Assembly (NCBI GenBank): GCA_002762865.1
Contig: PCYE01000021.1
Location: 1-40,716, forward strand
DNA: 40,716 nucleotides
From: Candidatus Woesearchaeota archaeon CG10_big_fil_rev_8_21_14_0_10_33_12
Lineage (GTDB): Archaea > Nanobdellota > Nanobdellia > Woesearchaeales > CG1-02-33-12
Reading direction: 5' to 3'
Under the pieces are notes generated by a model. The model saw only the letters and a list, made by a program, of their open reading frames with translations, was not told the DNA's origin and did not search any database. A program made the position numbers and the translations under genes. Numbering within the stretch: position 1 is the stretch's first letter; each line of letters starts with the position of its first letter. Positions 17,913-38,291 of this stretch are shown here, one piece after another.

Positions 17913-19088
17913 ATGAGTTTAAGCTTAGGAATAGATCTTTCCACATTTGCTTATGGTAAAATGATGGGTCTAGATTCAAATGAGAATAATGGTAATAAGC
18001 ATGAGATTAGTGTTATAATCCCCGCATATAATGAAGAGAAAAGTATTGAGGAGGTTGTTGATGCACAGTACAAACAAACAAAACAACCAAAAAATGTATT
18101 TTTAATTAATGATAATTCCTCTGATTCCACACATGATATCTGCAAATGTTTAGAAAAAAAGTATAATACTTTTGTGTATATAAAAAATGATCACAACCAA
18201 GGTAAAGCTAGTAACATAAATAAAGTTGTAAGCGATTATTATGATAAATTAGGAGATATTGTATACATAAATGATGGTGATTTGATACCTGATAAAAATT
18301 GTCTAGAAGAACTAATTAATGGTTTTGATGAACCTGAAGTTGCAGCAATTACTGGATTTCCTCGCCTTATTGCTGGAGGATCTTTATTGAGTAAAGCTAT
18401 GACTTGGGGAAAACAATGGCAGATAGATGTTCTTTATTTTAGAAAAGAGGCACAAGCATATAGAAATGGTATGTATGTTCTTTGTGGAGCAATTACTGCC
18501 TATAAAAAAGATATTTTAAAAAAGATTCCCATACCAACAAGAACCAAAACAGAAGATTTAGATTATACTTGGATTCTTATAGAAAATGGCTACAAATTAA
18601 GATTTCAAAAAAAAGCAACAGCTAAATCATATGATGTAGTTGGCATGAAAGAACACTGGAAACAAACCCTTAGGTGGCATAGCGGGGCATGGCAGTCTAT
18701 TTATTCTCATGGAAAAAATTTAAATAAAGCTAAGGGTTTATTATATACTACATTAGTACCATTCTGGCTTGATGCAGCACTCTTTACAGCTTTACCTTTT
18801 CTATACAACTATAACTCTTATGTAGCATTAGGCATAGTTGGTATTGAGCTTATATCAAACTTAACTACTAATCTGATTTCAAGTCCAAAATCTTTGAAAT
18901 ATTTTCCCTCTGCACCATTGTATACTGCAATGTGTTTTTCTAGTTATTTAATTAGTGCAGTAAAAACAACTAACGAGAAAATAATGCACAAAGAAGATCA
19001 ATGGAAGAATAGATGGGAAAAACAGGTTATAAAAGACCCTGTTGCAAAGAATATCCCTAAGAATCAGGAAGAACAAAATGAGAAATAA
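17913..19088 (+). CDS. family 2 glycosyltransferase (processive, PgaC/hyaluronan-synthase-like) with C-terminal membrane helices
   Basis: ISVIIPAYNEEKSIEEVV, NDGDLIPD, TEDLDYTW, QTLRW (QxxRW). Confidence 0.9.
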   Translation: MSLSLGIDLSTFAYGKMMGLDSNENNGNKHEISVIIPAYNEEKSIEEVVDAQYKQTKQPKNVFLINDNSSDSTHDICKCLEKKYNTFVYIKNDHNQGKASNINKVVSDYYDKLGDIVYINDGDLIPDKNCLEELINGFDEPEVAAITGFPRLIAGGSLLSKAMTWGKQWQIDVLYFRKEAQAYRNGMYVLCGAITAYKKDILKKIPIPTRTKTEDLDYTWILIENGYKLRFQKKATAKSYDVVGMKEHWKQTLRWHSGAWQSIYSHGKNLNKAKGLLYTTLVPFWLDAALFTALPFLYNYNSYVALGIVGIELISNLTTNLISSPKSLKYFPSAPLYTAMCFSSYLISAVKTTNEKIMHKEDQWKNRWEKQVIKDPVAKNIPKNQEEQNEK

Positions 19089-20310
19089 TAATAGAAATAA
19101 ATTTAAAAGAATTTCATGTGTTATTTTGCCTACATTTCTTAGTGTAGGACTTTTATATTTTACAAATGTTTCTGCTTTTGATGCAGGAGGTAATAATTTA
19201 AATAATCTTTCTAACAACGATAAAAGTGAAATTATTCAAGAAGGAAATAAATTAGTGAATAATTTAGGATATTTTAATGAATTCAATATAGATAACTTAG
19301 ACTTAGAACTTAGATTTACTGGAGATAATGAATTTATAACAGAGAATGAATCAAATTTAAATAAAGCAAACAAAAGATTATTGGAAATAAAGGCGGGCTC
19401 TAACGTTCGAAAATTAGAAGAGTGTTTAACAGGCAAAATAGAACCACAGTTAATTAATCTGTCAAGAGATGATATTATTTTATATAGTAGGATGATACCT
19501 ATAAAGAATTCATTAGAATTATACACTCAAATATATGAAATAGATCCAATATGGTTTTCTGAAGTGCTTTTACTTGAATCAAGATTTAATCCAATAGCAG
19601 TGAATGATAGAACATTAGATTATGGTATTGCTCAAATGAAAAAAGAAAGATATGAATTAGCAAAAGAATCTATGAGTAATAAACAAACTCAATATTTTTT
19701 AGATGTTAATTTAGAGGATAATATTTATAATCCCGAGACTAATATTGCATCTGTTCTTCTACTAACCAGAAGGGTTATTGATGAAAATAATCTAACCTCC
19801 GAAGATTATGATATCCTTTCAGTTTTATATAATTTGGGTTATGCAGGAATAAATGATAATAGGACATTTACAGAAAAGGGACAAAGATATCTAGATCTCC
19901 TTGACGAAAGAAAGTTTGAAGTAAATAAAATAATTAATTGCTTCGATTACGAAAAAAATGAAAGAAATTATATCAAAAACAAGAGAATAATGCCTTTATT
20001 TAATGTTTATGATGATAATAATAGTATAGATAAACAATATCAGGAATTATTCAAATTTTATACATTAGAATTAGATAATATAAAAAATGAAGAAGACGTT
20101 TGGTGGTCAGCATTATGTCTAAATGAATCTTTTTTATACTCAAAAATTTTAGATAATATTTATAAAACAGAAATAGAGGAAGAAAACAGAAATAAAATTT
20201 ATGATGCCGCAAATTATCTTGAAAATGTAACTGAAAGTTATAGAAATACTGAACTTGGGCAATATGTTGATCAATTATACAAAATGATTATCCCCTTTAA
20301 AAATGACTAA
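19078..20310 (+). CDS. secreted/anchored lytic-transglycosylase (SLT)-like protein
   Basis: signal/TM N-terminus; WFSEVLLLESRFNPIAVNDRTLDYGIAQMKKERYELA...YNPETNIASVLLLTRRVIDE...DILSVLYNLGYAGI resembles SLT ESxFxPxAxS...GxMQ...NI..G...A.YN.G. Confidence 0.7.
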   Translation: MRNNNRNKFKRISCVILPTFLSVGLLYFTNVSAFDAGGNNLNNLSNNDKSEIIQEGNKLVNNLGYFNEFNIDNLDLELRFTGDNEFITENESNLNKANKRLLEIKAGSNVRKLEECLTGKIEPQLINLSRDDIILYSRMIPIKNSLELYTQIYEIDPIWFSEVLLLESRFNPIAVNDRTLDYGIAQMKKERYELAKESMSNKQTQYFLDVNLEDNIYNPETNIASVLLLTRRVIDENNLTSEDYDILSVLYNLGYAGINDNRTFTEKGQRYLDLLDERKFEVNKIINCFDYEKNERNYIKNKRIMPLFNVYDDNNSIDKQYQELFKFYTLELDNIKNEEDVWWSALCLNESFLYSKILDNIYKTEIEEENRNKIYDAANYLENVTESYRNTELGQYVDQLYKMIIPFKND

Positions 20311-22128: not shown

Positions 22129-22407
22129 ATGGAAATCAATGTCATTGAAGAAAAAAAGAACAGGTTAAGCTTTGAGCTTAAGGGGCAGGGCAACACTTTC
22201 TGCAATATATTAAAAGATGAGCTATGGAATGATAAGCATGTTACTGTTGCAACATATACCATAAAGCATCCATTACTTGGAATTCCTTTTATGATTGTTG
22301 AGACAGATGGGCATAAAAGCCCAAAACAAGCATTGGAAAGTGCTGCTGAGAGAGTAGCTGATAAGGCAGACAAGCTAAGGAAAGAGGCCAAGAAAGAGCT
22401 AAAATGA
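22129..22407 (+). CDS. rpoL: DNA-directed RNA polymerase subunit L (Rpo11)
   Basis: LSFELKGQGNTFCNILKDELWNDKHVTVATYTIKHPLLGIPFMIVETDGHKSPKQAL. Confidence 0.9.
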   Translation: MEINVIEEKKNRLSFELKGQGNTFCNILKDELWNDKHVTVATYTIKHPLLGIPFMIVETDGHKSPKQALESAAERVADKADKLRKEAKKELK

Positions 22408-22955
22408 TTAAGCCATCAGATGGCAAGTTATTGATAAAATTAGCAAGAGAATCTATTTCCTCATATTTCTTACAAAAAGAGCCAAATATAAGCATTCTAA
22501 AACAGTTTTCTGACAGGCAGGGAGTATTTGTAACTTTAAATAAAAATGAGCAACTAAGGGGTTGCATTGGCTTTCCAGAGCCCATATTCCCTTTGTATGA
22601 AGCAATAATAAAATCAGCAAGGTCAGCTGCTTTTGAAGACCCAAGATTTCCCCCATTGCAGAAAGAAGAACTAAAAGATATAAAAATAGAGATATCTGTT
22701 CTTACTGTCCCAAAACTTATTGAAGTGAAAAAACCAGAGGATTATCTTAAGGAAATAAAGATTGGCAAAGATGGCCTCATAATAAGGTCAGGCTATGGCT
22801 CCGGGCTATTGCTGCCGCAGGTTGCAGCAGAATATAAGTGGGGAGTTGAAGAGTTTCTTAGGCATTTATGCGAAAAAGCCTGGCTAAAGCAGGATGCATG
22901 GAAAGATACAAACAGCAGGATTTACAGATTTCAGGCGCAGATATTTAAAGAGTAA
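22404..22955 (+). CDS. AMMECR1-domain protein
   Basis: GVFVTLNKNEQLRGCIGFPEP...SAAFEDPRFPPLQKEELKDIKIEISVL. Confidence 0.92.
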   Translation: MIKPSDGKLLIKLARESISSYFLQKEPNISILKQFSDRQGVFVTLNKNEQLRGCIGFPEPIFPLYEAIIKSARSAAFEDPRFPPLQKEELKDIKIEISVLTVPKLIEVKKPEDYLKEIKIGKDGLIIRSGYGSGLLLPQVAAEYKWGVEEFLRHLCEKAWLKQDAWKDTNSRIYRFQAQIFKE

Positions 22956-22983
22956 ACCTAAGAAAAAGGAGGCAAGAAAGAAA

Positions 22984-23580
22984 ATGAATTCTGAAAAAAA
23001 CCATTCTCTCCCTTTTAAAAGAGATACAGCATGGGAACTTGTCAAAGAATACAACAAAGATAAACCTGATCTTAACCATTATCTTGAAAGCGAGGCTATT
23101 ATGCTGGCTCTTGCAAAAAAATTGGGAGAAGATGAAGAAACATGGGGAATGCTTGGTTTAGTGCATGATATTGATTGGGGCATAACAAAAAAAAATCCCA
23201 AAGATCATTTAACTAAGGCCCCTGAGATTTTGAGGAAAGCTAGTTTTAGTGAGGATTTTATTAAAATTATTGTTTCCCATGGTTATGGGTATGAATGTGC
23301 AGGTCTGGAAAATAAAAAAAGAACAACAAAAGCAGAGCATGCCCTTGCCTGCGCTGAAACAGTAACCGGATTAATTCATGCTTACGCATTAATAAGAGGC
23401 TCAATAGATGGCATGAAAGTAAAGGGATTAAAAAAGAAGTTTAAAGAGAAGAGCTTTGCAGCTGCAGTAAACAGGGAAATAATCAAGGAATGCGGAGATT
23501 TAGGGCTTGAGTTAAGTGAGTTTCTGCAGTTGTCAATTGATGCAATAACAGAAATAGCAGATAAGGTTGATTTAATATAA
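22984..23580 (+). CDS. HD-domain phosphohydrolase-like protein
   Basis: ALAKKLGEDEETWGMLGLVHDIDWG ... IIVSHGYG ... HALACAETVTGLI. Confidence 0.8.
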   Translation: MNSEKNHSLPFKRDTAWELVKEYNKDKPDLNHYLESEAIMLALAKKLGEDEETWGMLGLVHDIDWGITKKNPKDHLTKAPEILRKASFSEDFIKIIVSHGYGYECAGLENKKRTTKAEHALACAETVTGLIHAYALIRGSIDGMKVKGLKKKFKEKSFAAAVNREIIKECGDLGLELSEFLQLSIDAITEIADKVDLI

Positions 23581-23581
23581 A

Positions 23582-24640
23582 ATGATTATAACTGATATAT
23601 TGGAATATTATAAAGAAAAAATAGAACTTAGGCTAAAAACCTTTCTGGATGAAAAAATTTCTGAAGCAGAAAAAATATCTTATTCTTCAAGAGAGATAAT
23701 GCAGTACATAAAAGAGTTTAATCTCAGGGGAGGAAAAAGAATAAGGTCAGTATTAATCATAATGGCCTACAAATCTCTTGGAGGAAAAAATGAAAATGCA
23801 ATAATTGATATTGCTGCGTCAGCAGAGCTAATGCAGTCATTCCTCCTGATCCATGATGATATAATTGATGATGATGATTTAAGGAGGGGCGGTCCAACCA
23901 TGCATAGAATATATGCAGAAAAATACAAAGGCTGTGATAACCCCAAAAAATTTGGGGAAAACATGGCAATAATAGCAGGCGATCTTCTTGCATCTCTTGG
24001 AAATGAAATAATCTCTAAATCAGCTTTTGATGAAGAAAAAAAGCTAAAGCTATTGCAGAAATTCAACAAGATTATAAAACTAACTGGCTATGGGGAAATA
24101 ATTGATATTTTGTCTGGGCTAAAAACTAATGTGACAGAACAAGATATATCAAAAATGCACAAGTTAAAAACAGCTGTATACACAATAGAAGGGCCCTTGC
24201 ACATGGGCGCAATAGCCGCAGGAGCATCAGATGATCAGCTAAAAATACTAAGTGAATATGCAATTCCATTGGGTATGGCATTTCAACTAAAGGATGATAT
24301 CCTGGGATTATTTGGCTCAGAGGAAAAGCTTGGCAAGCCAGCTGATTCTGATATAAAAGAGGGCAAAAAAACACTTCTTATTTTAAAGGTACTGGAGAAT
24401 GCAAATAAAGAACAAAAAGAGCTCATTGGAAATGCATTGGGAAACAAAGATATAACAAAAACAGAGCTAACAAAGGTAAGAGAAATAATAAAAGAAACAG
24501 GCTCACTATCTTATTCAGAAAATCTGGCAGAAAAACTAGTGAAAAAAGCAAAGAATGCAATAAAAACTTCTGATTTTGAAACGCATGGAAAAGATTTCTT
24601 TTTGGAAATAGCAGATTATGTAATCAAAAGAGATTACTAA
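23582..24640 (+). CDS. trans-polyprenyl (geranylgeranyl-type) diphosphate synthase
   Basis: GGKRIRSVL, LLIHDDIIDDDDLRRGGPTMH (first DDxxD), FQLKDDILG (second Asp-rich). Confidence 0.93.
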   Translation: MIITDILEYYKEKIELRLKTFLDEKISEAEKISYSSREIMQYIKEFNLRGGKRIRSVLIIMAYKSLGGKNENAIIDIAASAELMQSFLLIHDDIIDDDDLRRGGPTMHRIYAEKYKGCDNPKKFGENMAIIAGDLLASLGNEIISKSAFDEEKKLKLLQKFNKIIKLTGYGEIIDILSGLKTNVTEQDISKMHKLKTAVYTIEGPLHMGAIAAGASDDQLKILSEYAIPLGMAFQLKDDILGLFGSEEKLGKPADSDIKEGKKTLLILKVLENANKEQKELIGNALGNKDITKTELTKVREIIKETGSLSYSENLAEKLVKKAKNAIKTSDFETHGKDFFLEIADYVIKRDY

Positions 24641-24728
24641 AATGGAGAGAAGAAAAACAAGAGGTATGAAGGTAGGAAAAATTTTTGAAGCGTTATTAAA
24701 TAAAATAAGAAAATTATAGGTGGGTTGT

Positions 24729-25418
24729 ATGAAAACAACAGCAATAATACTAGCAGCAGGAAAGGCAAAAAGAATGATGGCTGATAAAAATAAACTCTTC
24801 TTAGAGCTGCGAAAACCAATTTTAATACATGCAGTAGAGGCATTTGAAAACCACAGATTAATCAATGAGATAATAATTGTTGTAAACAAAAAAGATTTAG
24901 AGGTTTGCAGCAAGATTGTTGAAAAAAATATCTTTAAAAAAATCCAGAAAATAATTGTTGGAGGCGAAACAAGACAGCAGTCATCATACAATGGTGTTAT
25001 GGAAGCAGATTCTGATATTATTATTATCCATGATGGGGCAAGACCGCTTGTAACAGAGGATTCTATAACAAACTCAATCAGGGATGCCTTAAATTATGGA
25101 GCCTCTGTTGTTGCAGTGCCTCTAAAAGAAACTGTAAAAAAGGTTGATAATTGTTTTGTTAAAAACACTCTTGATAGAGATGCATTATGGATTGCCCAAA
25201 CACCACAAACATTCAAGGCAGATATTATTAAAAAGGCGCATGAAGCAGCAGAAAGAGATGGTTTTTTTGGAAAAGATGATTCTTCATTAGTTGAAAGATT
25301 AGGTTATAAAGTTAGGATATGCATGGGGCATTATGAAAATTTAAAGATAACAACACCAGATGATCTGATAATAGCAAAGCATATATTTAAGAAAAATAAT
25401 GGTGATTATTATGATTAG
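24729..25418 (+). CDS. ispD: 2-C-methyl-D-erythritol 4-phosphate cytidylyltransferase
   Basis: TAIILAAGKAKRMMADKNKLFLEL, VGGETRQQSSYNGV, IIIHDGARPLV, VAVPLKETVKKV, AQTPQTFKADIIKKAH. Confidence 0.92.
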   Translation: MKTTAIILAAGKAKRMMADKNKLFLELRKPILIHAVEAFENHRLINEIIIVVNKKDLEVCSKIVEKNIFKKIQKIIVGGETRQQSSYNGVMEADSDIIIIHDGARPLVTEDSITNSIRDALNYGASVVAVPLKETVKKVDNCFVKNTLDRDALWIAQTPQTFKADIIKKAHEAAERDGFFGKDDSSLVERLGYKVRICMGHYENLKITTPDDLIIAKHIFKKNNGDYYD

Positions 25419-25890
25419 GGTTGGTATTGGCCAGGATTCTCATAGGTTTATAAGAAAAAGCAAAAAAAGGCTTGCTCTTGGTGGTGTGATAATCCATGAT
25501 GAAAAGGGCTTAGAAGGAAATTCTGATGGTGATGTTGTGCTGCATGCTATCTTCAACGCCCTAAGCCAGGCTGTTGGCAAAAGATCAATAGGGTTCTATT
25601 CTGATAAGATGTGCAGGGAAGGAATTAAAGACAGCAGGGAATACCTAAAGCTGGCATTGAAGATGGTCAAGGACAGCGGTTATAAAGTAAATAATATTGG
25701 TGTGATGATTGAGGCAAAAAAACCAAGGATTGAGCCATATGTTGATGATATGAAAAAGAGCATAGCAAGGATATTAATGATCACACAAAACATGGTTGGT
25801 ATAACAGCAACTTCTGGCGAGGGCCTTACTGCCTTTGGCAGAGGCATGGGAATACAGGTATTTGCAATAGCAACTGTTGTCAGGTGTTAA
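25411..25890 (+). CDS. ispF: 2-C-methyl-D-erythritol 2,4-cyclodiphosphate synthase
   Basis: RVGIGQDSHRF, LALGGVIIHDEKGLEGNSDGDVVLHAIFNAL, EAKKPRIEPYVDDM, TSGEGLTAFGRGMGIQVFAIA. Confidence 0.92.
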   Translation: MIRVGIGQDSHRFIRKSKKRLALGGVIIHDEKGLEGNSDGDVVLHAIFNALSQAVGKRSIGFYSDKMCREGIKDSREYLKLALKMVKDSGYKVNNIGVMIEAKKPRIEPYVDDMKKSIARILMITQNMVGITATSGEGLTAFGRGMGIQVFAIATVVRC

Positions 25891-25894
25891 TATA

Positions 25895-26767
25895 ATGGAA
25901 CTAATCCAAAAGGCATATGCCAAAATAAACCTTTCCCTGGATATCATTAAGAGACTCTCTTCTGGATACCATAAAATAGAATCTGTTATACAGGAACTTG
26001 AGCTGTATGATATAATTAAACTAAAGAAAATAGAAAAAGGCATAAAACTTAAGTGTAATATTAATATTTGTCCAGCTAATGAAAACCTTGCTTACAAAGC
26101 AGCAGAGCTTCTTATTAAAAAGTTTAAAATAAACAGGGGTGTTGAAATAACTATTGAGAAAAATATTCCTATTGCAGCTGGCCTAAGCGGAGGAAGTGCA
26201 GATGCTGCTGCAACATTAAAGGGCATGAACAATATCTTTAATTTAGGTTTATCAGAAGAGAAACTAATTGAAATATCCAATGATATTGGCATGGATGTTG
26301 CATTTTGTTTATTTGGCGGAACAGCATATGCAACCGGTAAGGGCAATGAATTGCAGAGGATAGAAGATTTTCCAATGCTTTATGTTGTTTTGGCAAAGCC
26401 AAAGTTTGGTATTTTAGCAAAAGATGCTTATAATAATCTTAATTATAAAAAAATAGGCAGACAGCTAAAAACAGCTAAAATGCTTTGTGCAATCAGGAAA
26501 AAAAGCATTAATAAAATTGCAGAAAATCTACATAATGATTTTGAATATTCTGTCTGCAAGAAGTATTCAATTATTAATGAAATCAAGCAAAAAATGATAG
26601 AAAATAAAGCATTAAATGCATTGATGTCTGGCTCCGGCCCAACTGTGTTTGGGATAATTCAAGATAAAGCTATTGCAGAAAACATACAGGATAGCTTAAA
26701 AAAAGATCATTATTTTAGGAAAAAGCTTGATTTTGTTTGCATAACATACACCAATACTATTCATTAA
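25895..26767 (+). CDS. ispE: 4-diphosphocytidyl-2-C-methyl-D-erythritol kinase (GHMP kinase)
   Basis: QKAYAKINLSLDIIKRLSSGYHKIESVIQELELYD; IPIAAGLSGGSADAAATLKGMN; MSGSGPTVFGI. Confidence 0.92.
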   Translation: MELIQKAYAKINLSLDIIKRLSSGYHKIESVIQELELYDIIKLKKIEKGIKLKCNINICPANENLAYKAAELLIKKFKINRGVEITIEKNIPIAAGLSGGSADAAATLKGMNNIFNLGLSEEKLIEISNDIGMDVAFCLFGGTAYATGKGNELQRIEDFPMLYVVLAKPKFGILAKDAYNNLNYKKIGRQLKTAKMLCAIRKKSINKIAENLHNDFEYSVCKKYSIINEIKQKMIENKALNALMSGSGPTVFGIIQDKAIAENIQDSLKKDHYFRKKLDFVCITYTNTIH

Positions 26768-26787
26768 TTTAAAATTTACTTTTTTAT

Positions 26788-26815
26788 AGTAGTAATAAAG
26801 GAAAAGATTTATAAA
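26788..26815 (+). promoter_or_regulatory. extended promoter motif, copy D
   Basis: AGTAGTAAT-AAAGGAAAAGA-TTTATAAA; ATG 26839 lies ~24 nt downstream. Confidence 0.6.
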
Positions 26816-26838
26816 CATATATTATACCCTTCTGGTTT

Positions 26839-27591
26839 ATGAATAAAAAACAATGCCAATATCATTTTGGAAGATTATGTAATAATACTGATATCATTTT
26901 CTCCTGTAATAGTGGCTTTTTGGGTTATACTTTAATTAGAGATATTTTGAATTACCAAAACATGGAAAACCCAATGCCTTTTATTATTACTGAAGGTGTT
27001 CTTATGACATTTTGTGGTTTTATGTCAATTAAGATTGGTTTAAAGGAGAGGTTTTCATCATTAATTAGAAATTATGAAATTAAAACAAACAAATCAAAAT
27101 ATCCTTTTGAACACAGCAAAAAAGTGATTATAGATGATTCAGATGGGTTAGAAATGTTATTGGATAAAACAGCAAGAAAAGAAGACTTAGAGTGGGGAAC
27201 TCTGTTAAATGCTTATGATGACAAAGACAATGCAGTTATCTATAAAATATCAGACTCTGAAATATTAAAAAATTTTAAAATTTCTGGCAAAAAATTAGTT
27301 AAAAAAGACTTTTTTTGGGAGCAAACAATAACTCTCAGTGGTCAAAAATTAGCTAATTTAGGTTATAACGGATTACATCATTATCATCCTTTTAATGAAT
27401 ATGGTAATTTTGCGATTAATCTTGTGGATAGGTTTTCCCCACGCAATTGGATAAATCTATTAACTTTCAACATGCCTGAAGGGCCTGAGATAATAGGATA
27501 CAATAACCAGTTTGTTTATATTCCAAAGGACAAAAATAAGAAAGAATTATTGCTGGCAAGTCCAAAAAAGATAATGGAATACTTAAGTTAA
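26839..27591 (+). CDS. hypothetical protein with possible JAMM/MPN-like metalloprotease domain
   Basis: EDLEWGTLLNAYDDKDNAVIYKI (E-x-x-x-L-like) and GLHHYHPFNEYGNFAINLVD (HxHP...N-x2-D, 13-residue spacing instead of 10); N-terminal hydrophobic helices. Confidence 0.45.
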   Translation: MNKKQCQYHFGRLCNNTDIIFSCNSGFLGYTLIRDILNYQNMENPMPFIITEGVLMTFCGFMSIKIGLKERFSSLIRNYEIKTNKSKYPFEHSKKVIIDDSDGLEMLLDKTARKEDLEWGTLLNAYDDKDNAVIYKISDSEILKNFKISGKKLVKKDFFWEQTITLSGQKLANLGYNGLHHYHPFNEYGNFAINLVDRFSPRNWINLLTFNMPEGPEIIGYNNQFVYIPKDKNKKELLLASPKKIMEYLS

Positions 27592-27625
27592 TTCTTCAAT
27601 TTTTTAATCAAAACTGAAAATTTTA

Positions 27626-27640
27626 AGAAAGATTTATAAA
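27626..27640 (+). promoter_or_regulatory. BRE/TATA promoter of ispH (no upstream AGTAGT element)
   Basis: agaaagatttataaa ~45-60 nt before ATG 27685. Confidence 0.55.
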
Positions 27641-27684
27641 AAGATTTTTTCCAATAACAATAATATAGATTAATTGGTGAAATT

Positions 27685-28494
27685 ATGAAAATTATTTGTG
27701 CAGAGAACATGGGCTTTTGCTTTGGTGTAAAGAGAGCACTTGACATGGTCTTAAAAGAAAAGAATGCTTATACTCTTGGCCAGCTCATACATAATCCACA
27801 GGTTGTTGAACTGCTTGAGAAAAAAGGAATTAAGGCTGTTAATTCAGTTAATGAGGTTAATGATGGAACTCTGATTATAACTGCTCATGGGACATCAAAA
27901 TCAAACATTTTGAAAGCAAGGAAAAAAGGTCTTAAAATAATAGACACAACATGTCCTCTTGTAAAAAGGGTTCATAAACTCGCAAAAAAGTTTGACAATG
28001 AAGGTTATAATATTATTTTGGTTGGAGATAAAGAACATTCTGAAGTCAAAGGGGTTGTTAGCAACGCTGATCATATTCTTGTGATAAACAGTGCAAAAGA
28101 AGCAAAAAGTTTGAGGTTTGGTAAGGCTTGTGTGTTATCCCAAACAACACAGTCACTAGAAAAATTTAATGAGATTGCTGTTATATTAAAGAAAAATATC
28201 CCGGATTTAAAGGTGTTTAATACAATATGTGATGCCACAAAGAAAAGGCAGGATTCAGCTATGAATCTTGCTAAAAAGGTTGATTTAATGATTGTCATTG
28301 GCGGCTATAACAGTGCTAACACAAAAATGTTAAGCCAGATTTGTAGCAAAATAGTTGAAACGAAACATATAGAAAAAGCTGATGAACTTGATTATAAATG
28401 GTTTAACGGAAAGAATATGATTGGATTAACAGCCGGAGCATCAACTCCAGATTGGGTAATTAGTGATATAAGAACAAAGATAGAGGCTATATAA
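27685..28494 (+). CDS. ispH: 4-hydroxy-3-methylbut-2-enyl diphosphate reductase
   Basis: AENMGFCFGVKRAL, GQLIHNPQVVELLEKKGI, DTTCPLVKRVH, GDKEHSEVKGVV, SQTTQS, NTICDATKKRQDSA, GGYNSANTKML, TAGASTPDWVI; three conserved Cys. Confidence 0.95.
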   Translation: MKIICAENMGFCFGVKRALDMVLKEKNAYTLGQLIHNPQVVELLEKKGIKAVNSVNEVNDGTLIITAHGTSKSNILKARKKGLKIIDTTCPLVKRVHKLAKKFDNEGYNIILVGDKEHSEVKGVVSNADHILVINSAKEAKSLRFGKACVLSQTTQSLEKFNEIAVILKKNIPDLKVFNTICDATKKRQDSAMNLAKKVDLMIVIGGYNSANTKMLSQICSKIVETKHIEKADELDYKWFNGKNMIGLTAGASTPDWVISDIRTKIEAI

Positions 28495-28875
28495 ATGAAA
28501 CCTAAGAAAGGATTGACAATTGAGGAATGCGTAAAAAAAGCAGAGAAATTTATAGAGTCTCAAGGAGTTTGCCTGCTTTTATATGACATAAAAGGGTCAA
28601 GAAATTTTGAGATAAATGAATTTATTCAAAAACGAGCCGAGATACAGGAAAGTTTGAACAATAAATTTTCAAAATATATGCCTAAAAATGATTTAGACGT
28701 CATGGGAATATTTAAGAAGGGATTTCAGATACAGAGGGGTGATGCTGCTGTTGCAGGAATAAATTCAGCAGAGGTTATTCCTGAGATAATTAATTATCAA
28801 AAGGAAATGTTTCCAGATGTACCGCTTTATTGGAGTGTGGCAAAGAATGGTTTTGATAAGAAAGGTTATATTTAG
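28495..28875 (+). CDS. hypothetical protein, weakly SatD-like
   Basis: CLLLYDIKGSRNFEINEFIQKRAEIQESLNNKF resembles DIxGSR...R...LQ; starts next to the ispH stop. Confidence 0.5.
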   Translation: MKPKKGLTIEECVKKAEKFIESQGVCLLLYDIKGSRNFEINEFIQKRAEIQESLNNKFSKYMPKNDLDVMGIFKKGFQIQRGDAAVAGINSAEVIPEIINYQKEMFPDVPLYWSVAKNGFDKKGYI

Positions 28876-28922
28876 TAAATGAACAATTTATTTTATAATC
28901 ATTTGATCCATAATAACTTAAA

Positions 28923-29630
28923 TTATTTTCCGAAGCGCCTTTGTCTCTGCTTGTATTCTTCAATAACTTTTACTAGGTCTTCTTTTTCAAATTCAGGCCA
29001 CATCTTTTCAAGAAAGAACCATTCTGAATAAATTGACTGCCAGGGAAGAAAGTTGCTTGTTCTTCTGTCACCCCCAGTCCTTATTATAAGGTCTGGCTCC
29101 GTATTCATGTAAAGGTTTTCTGCGAATGTATATTCATTAACATCCTTTATATCCAGCTCTTTGTTCTTAATTTTTTCAGCAACTTTTTTTACAGCATCAA
29201 GAATTTCCTCTCTGCCGCCATATGCAAGTGCAATATTAATTTTGTAGTTGTTATAATCCTTAGTTATGTCAATAACTTTTTTTATTTTTTCCTGCACTTT
29301 TTTCGGAAATAAATAATGCCTGCCAATAATATTTATTTTTATTTTATATTTATGAATATCCTCATTTGTTGATATTTCATTAAATCCCTTCTCAAAGAGA
29401 TTCATGAGATAGTTGAACTCTTCTTTTGGCCTGTTAAAGTTCTGAATAGAGAAGCAGTAAAGTGTTATTTCCTTAATTTCTAATTCCTTGCACCATTTAA
29501 ACAGTTTTTTAAGCTTTTCAAAGCCTAACTCATGCCCCCTCCATGGCTCTAACATAAGCCTTTTTGCAAAGCGCCTGTTTCCGTCTAAAATAATTCCAAT
29601 ATGCTCTGGATTTTTGCCCATACAAAACAT
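28923..29630 (-). CDS. uppS: cis-prenyltransferase (undecaprenyl/dolichyl diphosphate synthase family)
   Basis: HIGIILDGNRRFAKRLML...GHELGFEKLKKLFKWCKELEIKEITLYCFSIQNFNRPKEE...DLIIRTGGDRRTSNFLPWQSIYSEWFFLEKMWPEF. Confidence 0.95.
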   Translation of the reverse strand: MFCMGKNPEHIGIILDGNRRFAKRLMLEPWRGHELGFEKLKKLFKWCKELEIKEITLYCFSIQNFNRPKEEFNYLMNLFEKGFNEISTNEDIHKYKIKINIIGRHYLFPKKVQEKIKKVIDITKDYNNYKINIALAYGGREEILDAVKKVAEKIKNKELDIKDVNEYTFAENLYMNTEPDLIIRTGGDRRTSNFLPWQSIYSEWFFLEKMWPEFEKEDLVKVIEEYKQRQRRFGK

Positions 29631-35157: not shown

Positions 35158-35979
35158 CTAAACTACTTTAGAAATGTCTGAAAAATGTTTTACTTGATAA
35201 ATTCTGGAATTTAATTTGTTTGATTTGTATTTTATGTTATGTTCTGAAATTTTTTTACTAATTTCAACTGAATTTTTTTCTTTCCAGTAGTTTAGTGCAA
35301 TTACATCAATACCAAGATTTGCTGCACCAAATATTTCATTGCTTTCATGTGCTATAAAAACAGCCTCACTTTTTTTAAAATAACCCTTTCCGCATTTAAG
35401 AGCAATATTAAAAAATTTAGGGTTTGGTTTTTTAACACCAATATCCTTGGAAGATATGATTCCTGAAATATAATTTAAAACATTAAAATTATAAGCCTTA
35501 TAAACTCCTCTCTCAACCAGTTGAGAAACAATCATCTTTTCTATTTTAGAATACAGATTATTTCTTTTTTCTGTTGCATCAGTTAGTATATAAAACAAAA
35601 TTCCTTTACAGTTAAGGATTTCAAGAGTTTTTGTTACATCTTTAAATAACTTGATTTTTTTATTGGAATTATAATTTTTATTTATTAACTTACAATAGTC
35701 TGCATAACTTGCATTAATAAAATTGTCATTCAGAAAAAGATTTATTGCTTCTTTCATTGATACTTTAGTTTGGCTTAGAATTTTATAGGGCTTGAACATA
35801 TTACAAACATCATCAATACTATAATTCATCCCATTTCTATTAAATAACTCTGTTAGAATTTCTTTTTGCCTATTTATACTGGAAGCAGAATCAAAAAGTA
35901 TATCTCCTGCATCTGATAGTACTATTCTAATAGACTTTTTTCCATTAAACACATTACAAAAGTTCATTTTATTTTTCAC
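35158..35979 (-). CDS. HAD-superfamily-like protein with altered motifs
   Basis: VLSDAGDILFDSASS (motif I), YILTDATEKRN (II), IGVKKPNPKFFNIALK (III), VFIAHESNEIFGAANLGIDVIAL (IV-like). Confidence 0.65.
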   Translation of the reverse strand: MKNKMNFCNVFNGKKSIRIVLSDAGDILFDSASSINRQKEILTELFNRNGMNYSIDDVCNMFKPYKILSQTKVSMKEAINLFLNDNFINASYADYCKLINKNYNSNKKIKLFKDVTKTLEILNCKGILFYILTDATEKRNNLYSKIEKMIVSQLVERGVYKAYNFNVLNYISGIISSKDIGVKKPNPKFFNIALKCGKGYFKKSEAVFIAHESNEIFGAANLGIDVIALNYWKEKNSVEISKKISEHNIKYKSNKLNSRIYQVKHFSDISKVV

Positions 35980-37189
35980 TGAAATAGTTTTTAAAGCGCT
36001 TTGTTATGTAAGATAAATTTAATGGTCTTTTAAAATCCCTTCTTCCTCCAAGCTCAATGTAGGAATATATTAAAACAGGTCCTTCCATTCCTTCAGACTC
36101 CTTAATAGTCTGTTCAAGACCCTTCTCTGTATTGACCATATATATAGAAGAATACCCTTGAAGAGCTGCAACAAATGGAATTTTTGCTGTGTCCGAACAT
36201 GATCTTTCTTCCGTGCATGAAGCATATGCATTATTGTCCAATACAATATGGGTTAAATTTTTAGGGTTGTTGTAACCTATTGTAACAAGTGTACCAAAAT
36301 TTGTTAAAATACTTGCATCTCCATCTATAACAATTGTTTTTGTTTTTGGTTTAGATACAGCAAAACCCAATCCAAGTGAAGATACCAGACCAAAAGATCC
36401 AACATTATAGAATTGATTTGGACTATCATATCTTTCATACAATGAACGACTTATTAACCCTGTTGTTGAAAAGATTGCATCTTCCGAAGTAGTTGAGTTT
36501 ATAATTGAATCAAGAGCAACCTCTCGCTTCATTTTTTTTGAATATTTTGAAGTTCTGTTAACTATTTTTGGTAATATCTCATTAATAACATTTTTGCTTC
36601 CATATTCTAATTTTTTATTATGTATTTTGGGTTCTGAAATTGTTTCATTACTTTTTCCTTTATATGAACACCAACCCCGTTTTACCAAGATTGCTGCTGG
36701 TTTCTTTTTTTCATTAATAAAATTATAAGAACCTGAAACTGTTTCTTCAATATTATCTTCTTCCAATTCTTTGTAGAAAATACCCAACTGCTCTAGAACT
36801 TTTTTGGTAAGTTTACCCCCTATTAAATGCTGGGGTGCATTCTCTCCTGAACATCCTCTATATGTTACAACAAATAAGAAAGGTATCTCGCATGGAATTA
36901 ACAAAGAGCTTATTTCATTTGTAGATTTTAGCATTCCAGAGTTTTGCATATAAACAACTGGAATTTTACTTCCAAGATAAGCTCCTGCAGCAATACCTAC
37001 TGCCTCTGGTTCGCTTTGTGCAGGAATATGGATAAAATCTTTATCAATTTCAAAATTATTGATGAAATATCTCAATACTCCACAAGGAACACCTGTTGCA
37101 AAGTTTGTACCTTTTTCTTTAAGCTTATTATGAAATCTATTTGCATGAGGGTTCTGACTTTTATTAAAATCCTTAAATTTTGATTCCAT
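35969..37189 (-). CDS. TPP-dependent phosphonopyruvate/sulfopyruvate decarboxylase-like protein
   Basis: ATGVPCGVLRYFIN, PAQSEPEAVGIAAGAYLGSKIPVVYMQNSG...N, GLISRSLYERYDSPNQFYNVGSFGLVSSLGLGFAVSKPKTKTIVIDGDASILTNFGTLVTIG...LDNNAYASCTEERS. Confidence 0.82.
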   Translation of the reverse strand: MESKFKDFNKSQNPHANRFHNKLKEKGTNFATGVPCGVLRYFINNFEIDKDFIHIPAQSEPEAVGIAAGAYLGSKIPVVYMQNSGMLKSTNEISSLLIPCEIPFLFVVTYRGCSGENAPQHLIGGKLTKKVLEQLGIFYKELEEDNIEETVSGSYNFINEKKKPAAILVKRGWCSYKGKSNETISEPKIHNKKLEYGSKNVINEILPKIVNRTSKYSKKMKREVALDSIINSTTSEDAIFSTTGLISRSLYERYDSPNQFYNVGSFGLVSSLGLGFAVSKPKTKTIVIDGDASILTNFGTLVTIGYNNPKNLTHIVLDNNAYASCTEERSCSDTAKIPFVAALQGYSSIYMVNTEKGLEQTIKESEGMEGPVLIYSYIELGGRRDFKRPLNLSYITKRFKNYFSEK

Positions 37190-38291
37190 TTAATTTTTTC
37201 CCCCCATATTCTGTAAAGAACAAACCACGATAATCCTGCCAGACCTTAGGTTTAAGGTTTTTGTCTTTAAAAATATCTTCAAGCATTTTTCTTGCATTTA
37301 AATAATACTCAATCCTGTTAGCTGAGAGATGCCTTAAATCAGCCTGCCCAGGAATATACTCCTGCATTGTATTAATTATAGGGAATTCTGTTAATACTGG
37401 AACATATTTTTTAATTTCATCGCTAAATATCTCTAAAGGATCTAACCCCATTATATAAAGAATTGTTGTGTTAATACCCAGGTCTTTAGCTGTATTTAAA
37501 ATTTTTCTGCTTTTATCTAAAGATATATTTTTTTCTGGTTTTAACATTTGATTTCTTCTTGTGAAACATTCAATTGTCATAGCTATTGTCGCAGAATTTA
37601 CATATTCCGCCATTTTTTTTAAAGACTTTATTGAGGTTATTTGTGAGCCCATATACTTTAATTCTCCTTTAAAATTATAATCATTTTTTAATATATCATT
37701 TAGCATTAATATATGCTCTAAAGTATCTTTTTCGTTTTCAAAACATCCTGTTACAATGCTTATTCCTTTGACATGAGATAAATCTTCCAGTTTTTCATTA
37801 GCGAGAACATAATTAATTCTCTTTCTTAACCTTTGTGGGCTAGTTAAATCATCTTCATCTCCTTTTGCAGAATTTAATTTGTATGTACCGCAGAACTTAC
37901 AACCACTACATTTTCTCCTATTATTAGAGTTAATTGTCATTTCAGTACCAATTTTATGGTTTTTTATATTTACAAATTTTCTAAAATAAGTGCTGTCGCA
38001 AGTATCATTTTCAACCAATTCTGCTTTAGCAATAGGTTTATTTTTAAACAGCAATTTTTTTCCGTTATGAATCCAACGCGAATCCTTTGTATTTGTTAAA
38101 GCAAGATAAAAATCTTCATTAATCAAATAAGGGCTTATTTTAAACCTTACCCTTTTAGAATCAAGAAAGGGATAATTAACTCCTTCAATATTAAGGGAAA
38201 TTAATAAGATATCAATTGCTGGAACATCATACTTTTTTTCAAGTTTAAAAGCATGTTCTAAAGATTCCAAAAATGCGTTTTTATTTTTCAT
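37173..38291 (-). CDS. radical-SAM-like protein with CxxCxxC cluster motif
   Basis: NNRRKCSGCKFCGTYK followed by TIM-barrel-like GISIVTGCFENEKDTLEHILMLNDIL...LKYMGSQITSIKSLKKMAEY...INTTILYIMGLDPLE. Confidence 0.65.
   Translation of the reverse strand: MKNKNAFLESLEHAFKLEKKYDVPAIDILLISLNIEGVNYPFLDSKRVRFKISPYLINEDFYLALTNTKDSRWIHNGKKLLFKNKPIAKAELVENDTCDSTYFRKFVNIKNHKIGTEMTINSNNRRKCSGCKFCGTYKLNSAKGDEDDLTSPQRLRKRINYVLANEKLEDLSHVKGISIVTGCFENEKDTLEHILMLNDILKNDYNFKGELKYMGSQITSIKSLKKMAEYVNSATIAMTIECFTRRNQMLKPEKNISLDKSRKILNTAKDLGINTTILYIMGLDPLEIFSDEIKKYVPVLTEFPIINTMQEYIPGQADLRHLSANRIEYYLNARKMLEDIFKDKNLKPKVWQDYRGLFFTEYGGKKLNGIKI

Follow-up and report, generated by a model that had tools for sequence, protein, structure and literature searches.

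The stretch of DNA analyzed here (the window; 40,716 nucleotides) corresponds to positions 1-40,716, i.e. the entire length, of contig PCYE01000021.1 of Candidatus Woesearchaeota archaeon CG10_big_fil_rev_8_21_14_0_10_33_12 (assembly GCA_002762865.1; designated G000), a 1.05-Mb metagenome-assembled genome (MAG) composed of 53 contigs with a completeness of 93.7%. It carries a cluster of isp genes of the methylerythritol phosphate (MEP) pathway of isoprenoid synthesis. We consider this locus, with a probability of roughly 0.6, to be the remains of a complete, operon-encoded MEP pathway of the bacterial type, whose entry enzymes, Dxs and Dxr, would have been lost in an ancestor of the family, the rest of the operon then persisting as a salvage module, or one with an unknown entry step, in some species and eroding in parallel in others, G000 among them.

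The lower MEP genes of G000

Gene identities were assigned on the basis of profile matches scored against curated family cut-offs (TIGR families, and PF00348 for the prenyl synthase), and the presence or absence of genes was determined by profile searches of whole genomes (six-frame in the case of ispG). The GTDB family sample comprised nine genomes, G000-G008, of which G002-G005 belong to the same genus as G000, and G008 represents a third genus. All of the genomes compared are fragmented MAGs, 75-97% complete.

The cluster begins with a gene encoding a trans-polyprenyl diphosphate synthase (PPS; 23582-24640, + strand; 210 bits, 4e-62), which is syntenic in G001-G007. On the same strand there are genes encoding the MEP cytidylyltransferase IspD (24720-25418; TIGR00453, 224.8 bits versus a cut-off of 181.3), the methylerythritol cyclodiphosphate (MEcPP) synthase IspF (25399-25890; TIGR00151, 158.8 versus 116.45), the diphosphocytidyl-methylerythritol (CDP-ME) kinase IspE (TIGR00154, 243.4 versus 138.7) and the hydroxymethylbutenyl diphosphate (HMBPP) reductase IspH (27685-28494; TIGR00216, 283.6 versus 187.85). 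The open reading frame (ORF) of IspE opens at 25877, and its homology-supported extent is 25895-26767. The cluster ends with a convergent gene for a UppS-type cis-prenyltransferase (28923-29630, - strand; TIGR00055, 254.5 versus 109.55), syntenic in G002-G007. An earlier note, made from the sequence of the window, had recognized IspD, IspF, IspE and IspH downstream of a prenyl synthase, and all of them exceed the curated cut-offs; membership in other nucleotidyltransferase or GHMP families, which the note had named as a possible refutation, was not borne out. The three conserved cysteines that it saw in IspH are Cys12, Cys90 and Cys182, the cluster cysteines, invariant in the alignment. The 8-nt overlap of ispD and ispF that it gave fits the conserved IspF start, which lies about 12 nt inside the first ATG; counted from the latter, the overlap is 20 nt. 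The UppS gene was not mentioned in the note.

G000 encodes IspD, IspE, IspF and IspH of the canonical MEP pathway, and lacks Dxs, Dxr and IspG. Both prenyl synthases, PPS and UppS, are intact, so that prenyl-chain synthesis is retained without a complete pathway to its five-carbon (C5) precursors, as is characteristic of host-dependent isoprenoid auxotrophy.

Absence of the pathway head and of a mevalonate pathway

Neither Dxs nor Dxr was found in any of the nine family genomes, and in 9 to 10 of 14 control genomes the matches were above the cut-off. Within the order (362 genomes), IspF exceeded its cut-off in 57 genomes and Dxr in 52. Genomes with IspF above the cut-off and without Dxr were limited to all five members of the genus of G000 and two others (G031 and G293). 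The chance that Dxr is missing from five of five genomes through incompleteness alone, calculated as the product of (1 - completeness), is about 3e-5.

Two of the mevalonate genes whose search the earlier note had advised were also not detected: HMG-CoA reductase was found in 0/9 family genomes and mevalonate kinase in 0/9 above the cut-off. A mevalonate route was thus not detected. Two extra GHMP kinase matches in G001 were rejected as a mevalonate replacement, since they are located in sugar (heptose-type) and glycan clusters, next to phosphoheptose-isomerase-like and sugar-nucleotidyltransferase genes. Geranylgeranylglyceryl phosphate (GGGP) synthase was likewise above the cut-off in none of the nine genomes.

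The reverse combination was observed elsewhere in Woesearchaeales. Genomes G011 (L217:9261-10379; 97% complete) and G153 (L219:307-1395; 95%) contain Dxr, with no other MEP genes near it and with no IspF detected genome-wide. A further Dxr, of G306, lies on a contig (L220, contig C22) with the gene order UppS-CdsA-like-Dxr-RseP-like-ProS-like, which resembles bacterial contamination, so that this Dxr is best left out of archaeal counts.

Deletion of ispG in G000

The earlier note saw no Dxs, Dxr or IspG in the window. For Dxs and Dxr this holds for the whole genome, but a remnant of ispG (24642-24719, + strand; 25 codons) had been overlooked. The 78 nt between the PPS stop and the ispD start consist of the first 13 codons of ispG, MERRKTRGMKVGK, joined in frame to the last 12, IFEALLNKIRKL, as revealed by alignment with ispG from the same place in G003, G004 and G005, where the gene is intact (346 codons), and in G002, where the copy is split over two contig ends. 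The internal deletion covers 321 codons (963 nt). No second copy of ispG was found in the G000 genome by the six-frame search. Since ispG is deleted, IspD, IspF and IspE of G000 could at most yield MEcPP, and IspH is left without an internally made substrate.

We regard it as improbable that an artefact of assembly or binning is responsible, either because the assembly dropped ispG and the entry genes or because the deletion represents a minor strain variant. The genome is a MAG of 53 contigs and its relatives have intact ispG, which would fit such an artefact. However, the junction is in frame, is located inside a 40.7-kb contig and shows microhomology of a few bases at most. The 3′ remnant differs from intact ispG of G004 and G005 at 8-10 of 39 nt, as against 3 of 39 between the intact genes of G003 and G004; this divergence, counted by eye on a small sample, suggests drift after a genuine deletion. 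Moreover, the absence of Dxs and Dxr recurs in nine genomes from several assemblies. An assembly break between the archaeal and the MEP genes, or a chimera, is unlikely in view of the gene order, which recurs in independently assembled MAGs of the relatives.

The earlier note had proposed a laterally acquired MEP pathway supplying C5 units to archaeal lipids. The enzymes are genuine, mevalonate genes were not detected and sister lineages have complete operons (see below). Nevertheless, this proposal, taken to mean a complete pathway, is now barely credible: Dxs and Dxr are absent family-wide, GGGP synthase is not above the cut-off, and the ispG deletion contradicts it unless the ~6% of the genome not recovered holds another ispG.

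Origin of the operon

Complete operons were found in sister Woesearchaeota. Their gene order is ispG-dxs-dxr-ispD-ispF-ispE-ispH in G026, ispG-dxs-dxr-ispD-ispF-x-ispE-ispH in G133 and dxs-ispG-dxr-ispD-ispF-ispE-ispH in L138, with the same order and one extra gene in L137. In G003, G004 and G005 ispD starts directly after ispG. Because the sister operons are complete and ispD adjoins ispG in these three genomes, we infer by parsimony that the operon lost dxs and dxr from the interval between ispG and ispD before the radiation of the family.

In the IspH tree the members of the family group together with good support. The closest other archaeal group is formed by the Woesearchaeota sister lineages with complete operons, and the fork joining the two is unresolved. 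IspH of f9, a large family with fused IspDF, is very distant from that of the G000 family, which is consistent with more than one acquisition of the MEP pathway in the order. As expected of a woesearchaeotal MEP operon, the isp genes of G000 are clustered in an archaeal chromosome and syntenic together with archaeal flanks; synteny of the PPS-isp-UppS neighborhood is full in G002-G005 and partial in G001, G006 and G007.

Selection on the lower genes in relatives with intact operons

All five lower genes (IspG-D-F-E-H) are open in G002-G005, where the ratio of nonsynonymous to synonymous substitution rates (dN/dS) is 0.11-0.39: 0.11-0.18 for IspG, 0.16-0.24 for IspD, 0.19-0.33 for IspF, 0.24-0.39 for IspE and 0.20-0.24 for IspH. 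These values are above those of UppS (0.12-0.14) and AMMECR1 (0.09-0.15), yet far under neutrality. Simulated neutral evolution to the observed dS predicts 3-12 stop codons per gene; the real genes have none. In the comparison of G003 with G007 (dS 1.1-1.4), which covers the time after the presumed loss of dxs and dxr, dN/dS was 0.19 for IspG and 0.16 for IspH. The lower MEP genes of G002-G005 are under purifying selection.

Within the genus, dS is 0.5-1.7 for RpoL and AMMECR1, 0.14-0.26 for ispD and ispF, and rises again toward IspH and UppS (window 22404-29630 versus L112-L117). IspE alleles are mosaic across the species. The low dS of ispD and ispF, together with these alleles, suggests interspecies exchange of the isp cassette within the genus.

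We tentatively propose that this archaeal genus has a headless IspD-E-F-G-H pathway under purifying selection, which may be fed by imported intermediates or methylerythritol, or by an unknown MEP-making enzyme independent of Dxs and Dxr. The latter possibility leads to the main alternative, namely an undiscovered, non-orthologous route to deoxyxylulose phosphate (DXP) and MEP, e.g. a carboligase dependent on thiamine pyrophosphate (TPP) with a DRL-like or other oxidoreductase, the damaged genomes being side branches. It would account for purifying selection on five enzymes in the absence of Dxs and Dxr, and there are many MEP bacteria without Dxs as well as cases of non-orthologous replacement (PMC10663253, PMC3424233). 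We consider it unlikely, as the locus holds no conserved candidate and a working internal pathway would leave the repeated loss of lower genes unexplained. The DRL domain PF21135 was matched in none of 149 genomes of the order, although no control matched either.

A TPP enzyme encoded in the window (35969-37189) was rejected as a substitute for Dxs. It is phosphonopyruvate decarboxylase-like, below the cut-off, and G002, G003, G004 and G007 lack it at the corresponding position, the only one searched in these genomes. The gene is part of a cassette (35158-38291) with genes for a HAD-like hydrolase and a radical SAM-looking protein, and the cassette is absent at the syntenic loci of the same four genomes.

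Probable parallel erosion across the family

At least four family genomes carry different deletions. In G001, ispG, ispD and ispF are gone, ispE begins about 40 nt after PPS, and ispH has lost 29 codons and carries a frameshift. In G006, codons 1-79 of ispG are fused in frame to ispE from codon 90 onward, ispE is then frameshifted, and ispD and ispF are gone. In G007, an intact ispG lies directly before ispH, and ispD, ispF and ispE have disappeared from the operon. In G008, an intact IspE gene (L111:2937-3812) comes immediately after AMMECR1 and is the only MEP gene detected. As the lesions differ at one locus, they are most likely independent.

Two further features of these genomes were noted. 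IspE survives alone twice (G008 and G001), perhaps a sign that this kinase has a further role, and G007 encodes a second, dissimilar IspD outside the operon (L110:410-1081; 44% identical, above the IspD cut-off).

In G000, ispE and ispH are separated by an ORF (26839-27591, + strand) that encodes 250 aa and matches no family. It is present in G000, G001 and G003 and absent from G002, G004, G006 and G007; in G005, where ispE is interrupted by a contig break, it was not found. The space between these two genes is an insertion site of variable content: G006 has a gene for a CbiR-like TIM-barrel protein here (L108:4588-5340), and G002 and G004 have no insert. The 250-aa ORF was rejected as a replacement enzyme: it is not consistently present among relatives whose operons are intact, and it is weakly constrained (dN/dS 0.45-0.62). 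Its AlphaFold model is unusable (pLDDT 32).

Possible course of events

According to the reading that we prefer, loss of dxs and dxr in the family ancestor would have ended the formation of MEP by known enzymes. That IspG, IspD, IspF, IspE and IspH nevertheless stayed under selection in several species would be explained most simply by uptake of MEP-pathway intermediates or methylerythritol released by neighboring bacteria; export of MEcPP is documented in engineered Escherichia coli (PMC3487848). Other species presumably receive isopentenyl diphosphate (IPP) or finished prenyl diphosphates from a partner, and independent deletions are removing their lower genes. G000, with ispG deleted, would belong with the eroding species and depend on later products. 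The retained PPS and UppS would draw on C5 or prenyl units taken up from outside; Rickettsia likewise keeps the prenyl steps after loss of upstream MEP genes (PMC6854040).

Several points weigh against this course of events. Every genome is a fragmented MAG, and any single gene absence could be a gap. A salvage transporter and a methylerythritol kinase were neither identified nor sought. The surviving gene sets are inconsistent (IspE alone in G001 and G008, intact IspH in G006, IspG and IspH in G007, and IspD, IspF, IspE and IspH in G000), so no single salvage entry point suits all of the species. Finally, the gene exchange suggested for the genus weakens estimates of time.

In G000, IspD, IspF and IspE are intact and ispG is not, and the chain would stop at MEcPP. 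The lower enzymes might thus act outside isoprenoid synthesis, with their product, MEcPP or a related metabolite, serving in stress signaling, as proposed in Listeria, for which partial pathways stopping at this compound have been discussed (PMC13001223). We find this very improbable: MEP has no known source when Dxr is missing, IspG and IspH are intact in four genomes of the same genus, and the operon has lost IspF in G006 and IspD, IspF and IspE in G007.

Comparison with described pathways

Two papers report bacterial-type MEP genes in Woesearchaeota (PMC8421398 and PMC8204110, both citing Castelle and Banfield 2018), and MEP genes are also present in some Micrarchaeota (PMC12892359). The earlier note had left novelty to a literature check: the occurrence of MEP genes in Woesearchaeota has been published since 2018, whereas no description of the headless, eroding operon was found in the open-access papers. 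The locus of G000 resembles the reported Woesearchaeota pathways (PMC8204110; PMC8421398, subgroup J) in its clustered isp genes in a DPANN chromosome and in the lack of a mevalonate pathway and GGGP synthase. It differs from them in that those pathways include dxs and dxr, with a fused ispDF in subgroup J, whereas in G000 IspD and IspF are not fused, its whole family lacks dxs and dxr, and the operon is in decay.

Loss of upstream MEP genes with retention of prenyl-chain synthases is known from the auxotrophic Rickettsia and Orientia, which obtain precursors from the host (PMC6854040); there the upstream genes are gone, whereas most lower MEP genes remain here, intact in four relatives. As in bacteria with an incomplete MEP pathway, the first enzyme is missing, but the 181 species described lack Dxs only, in contrast to both Dxs and Dxr here. 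The same survey, restricted to bacteria, found no compelling pattern of joint absence of Dxs and Dxr with the rest kept, and called IspG rigid (PMC10663253). Listeria also keeps a truncated pathway, but lacks its end and has a mevalonate pathway (PMC13001223), whereas in the present case it is the beginning that is missing, and a mevalonate pathway was not detected. In the open-access literature we found no case in which Dxs and Dxr are both lacking and the remaining enzymes retained, no description of Woesearchaeota with IspD-H and without Dxs and Dxr, and none of clade-wide loss of both entry enzymes combined with a conserved lower operon and parallel erosion.

Flanking genes

The archaeal character of the flanks, noted earlier for RpoL, AMMECR1 and METTL5, was confirmed. 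RpoL (22129-22407, + strand) and AMMECR1 (22404-22955, + strand) precede the cluster and flank it in the relatives as well; a METTL5-type methyltransferase is also encoded in the flanks, and archaeal LonB (842 bits versus a cut-off of 516.6) lies farther away. An HD-domain ORF (22894-23580) was found complete only in G000 and G002, and an ORF of 126 aa without a family match (28495-28875, + strand) follows ispH. The window also encodes a secreted protein (19042-20310) that appears lytic transglycosylase-like by eye, a motif-level impression only; secreted proteins of this kind have been tied to bacterial partners of small Pacearchaeota and Woesearchaeota (PMC8204110).

Implications

MEP genes of Woesearchaeota have been taken to indicate that the cells make their own C5 units. 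As this family shows, these genes can exist without a complete pathway, and scoring the MEP pathway as present therefore overstates the capability of the cells. The operon occurs as a series: it is complete in sister families, headless yet conserved in four species, and broken in at least four others. This series constitutes a natural test of the sharing of intermediates between microbes or of an unknown MEP-forming enzyme.

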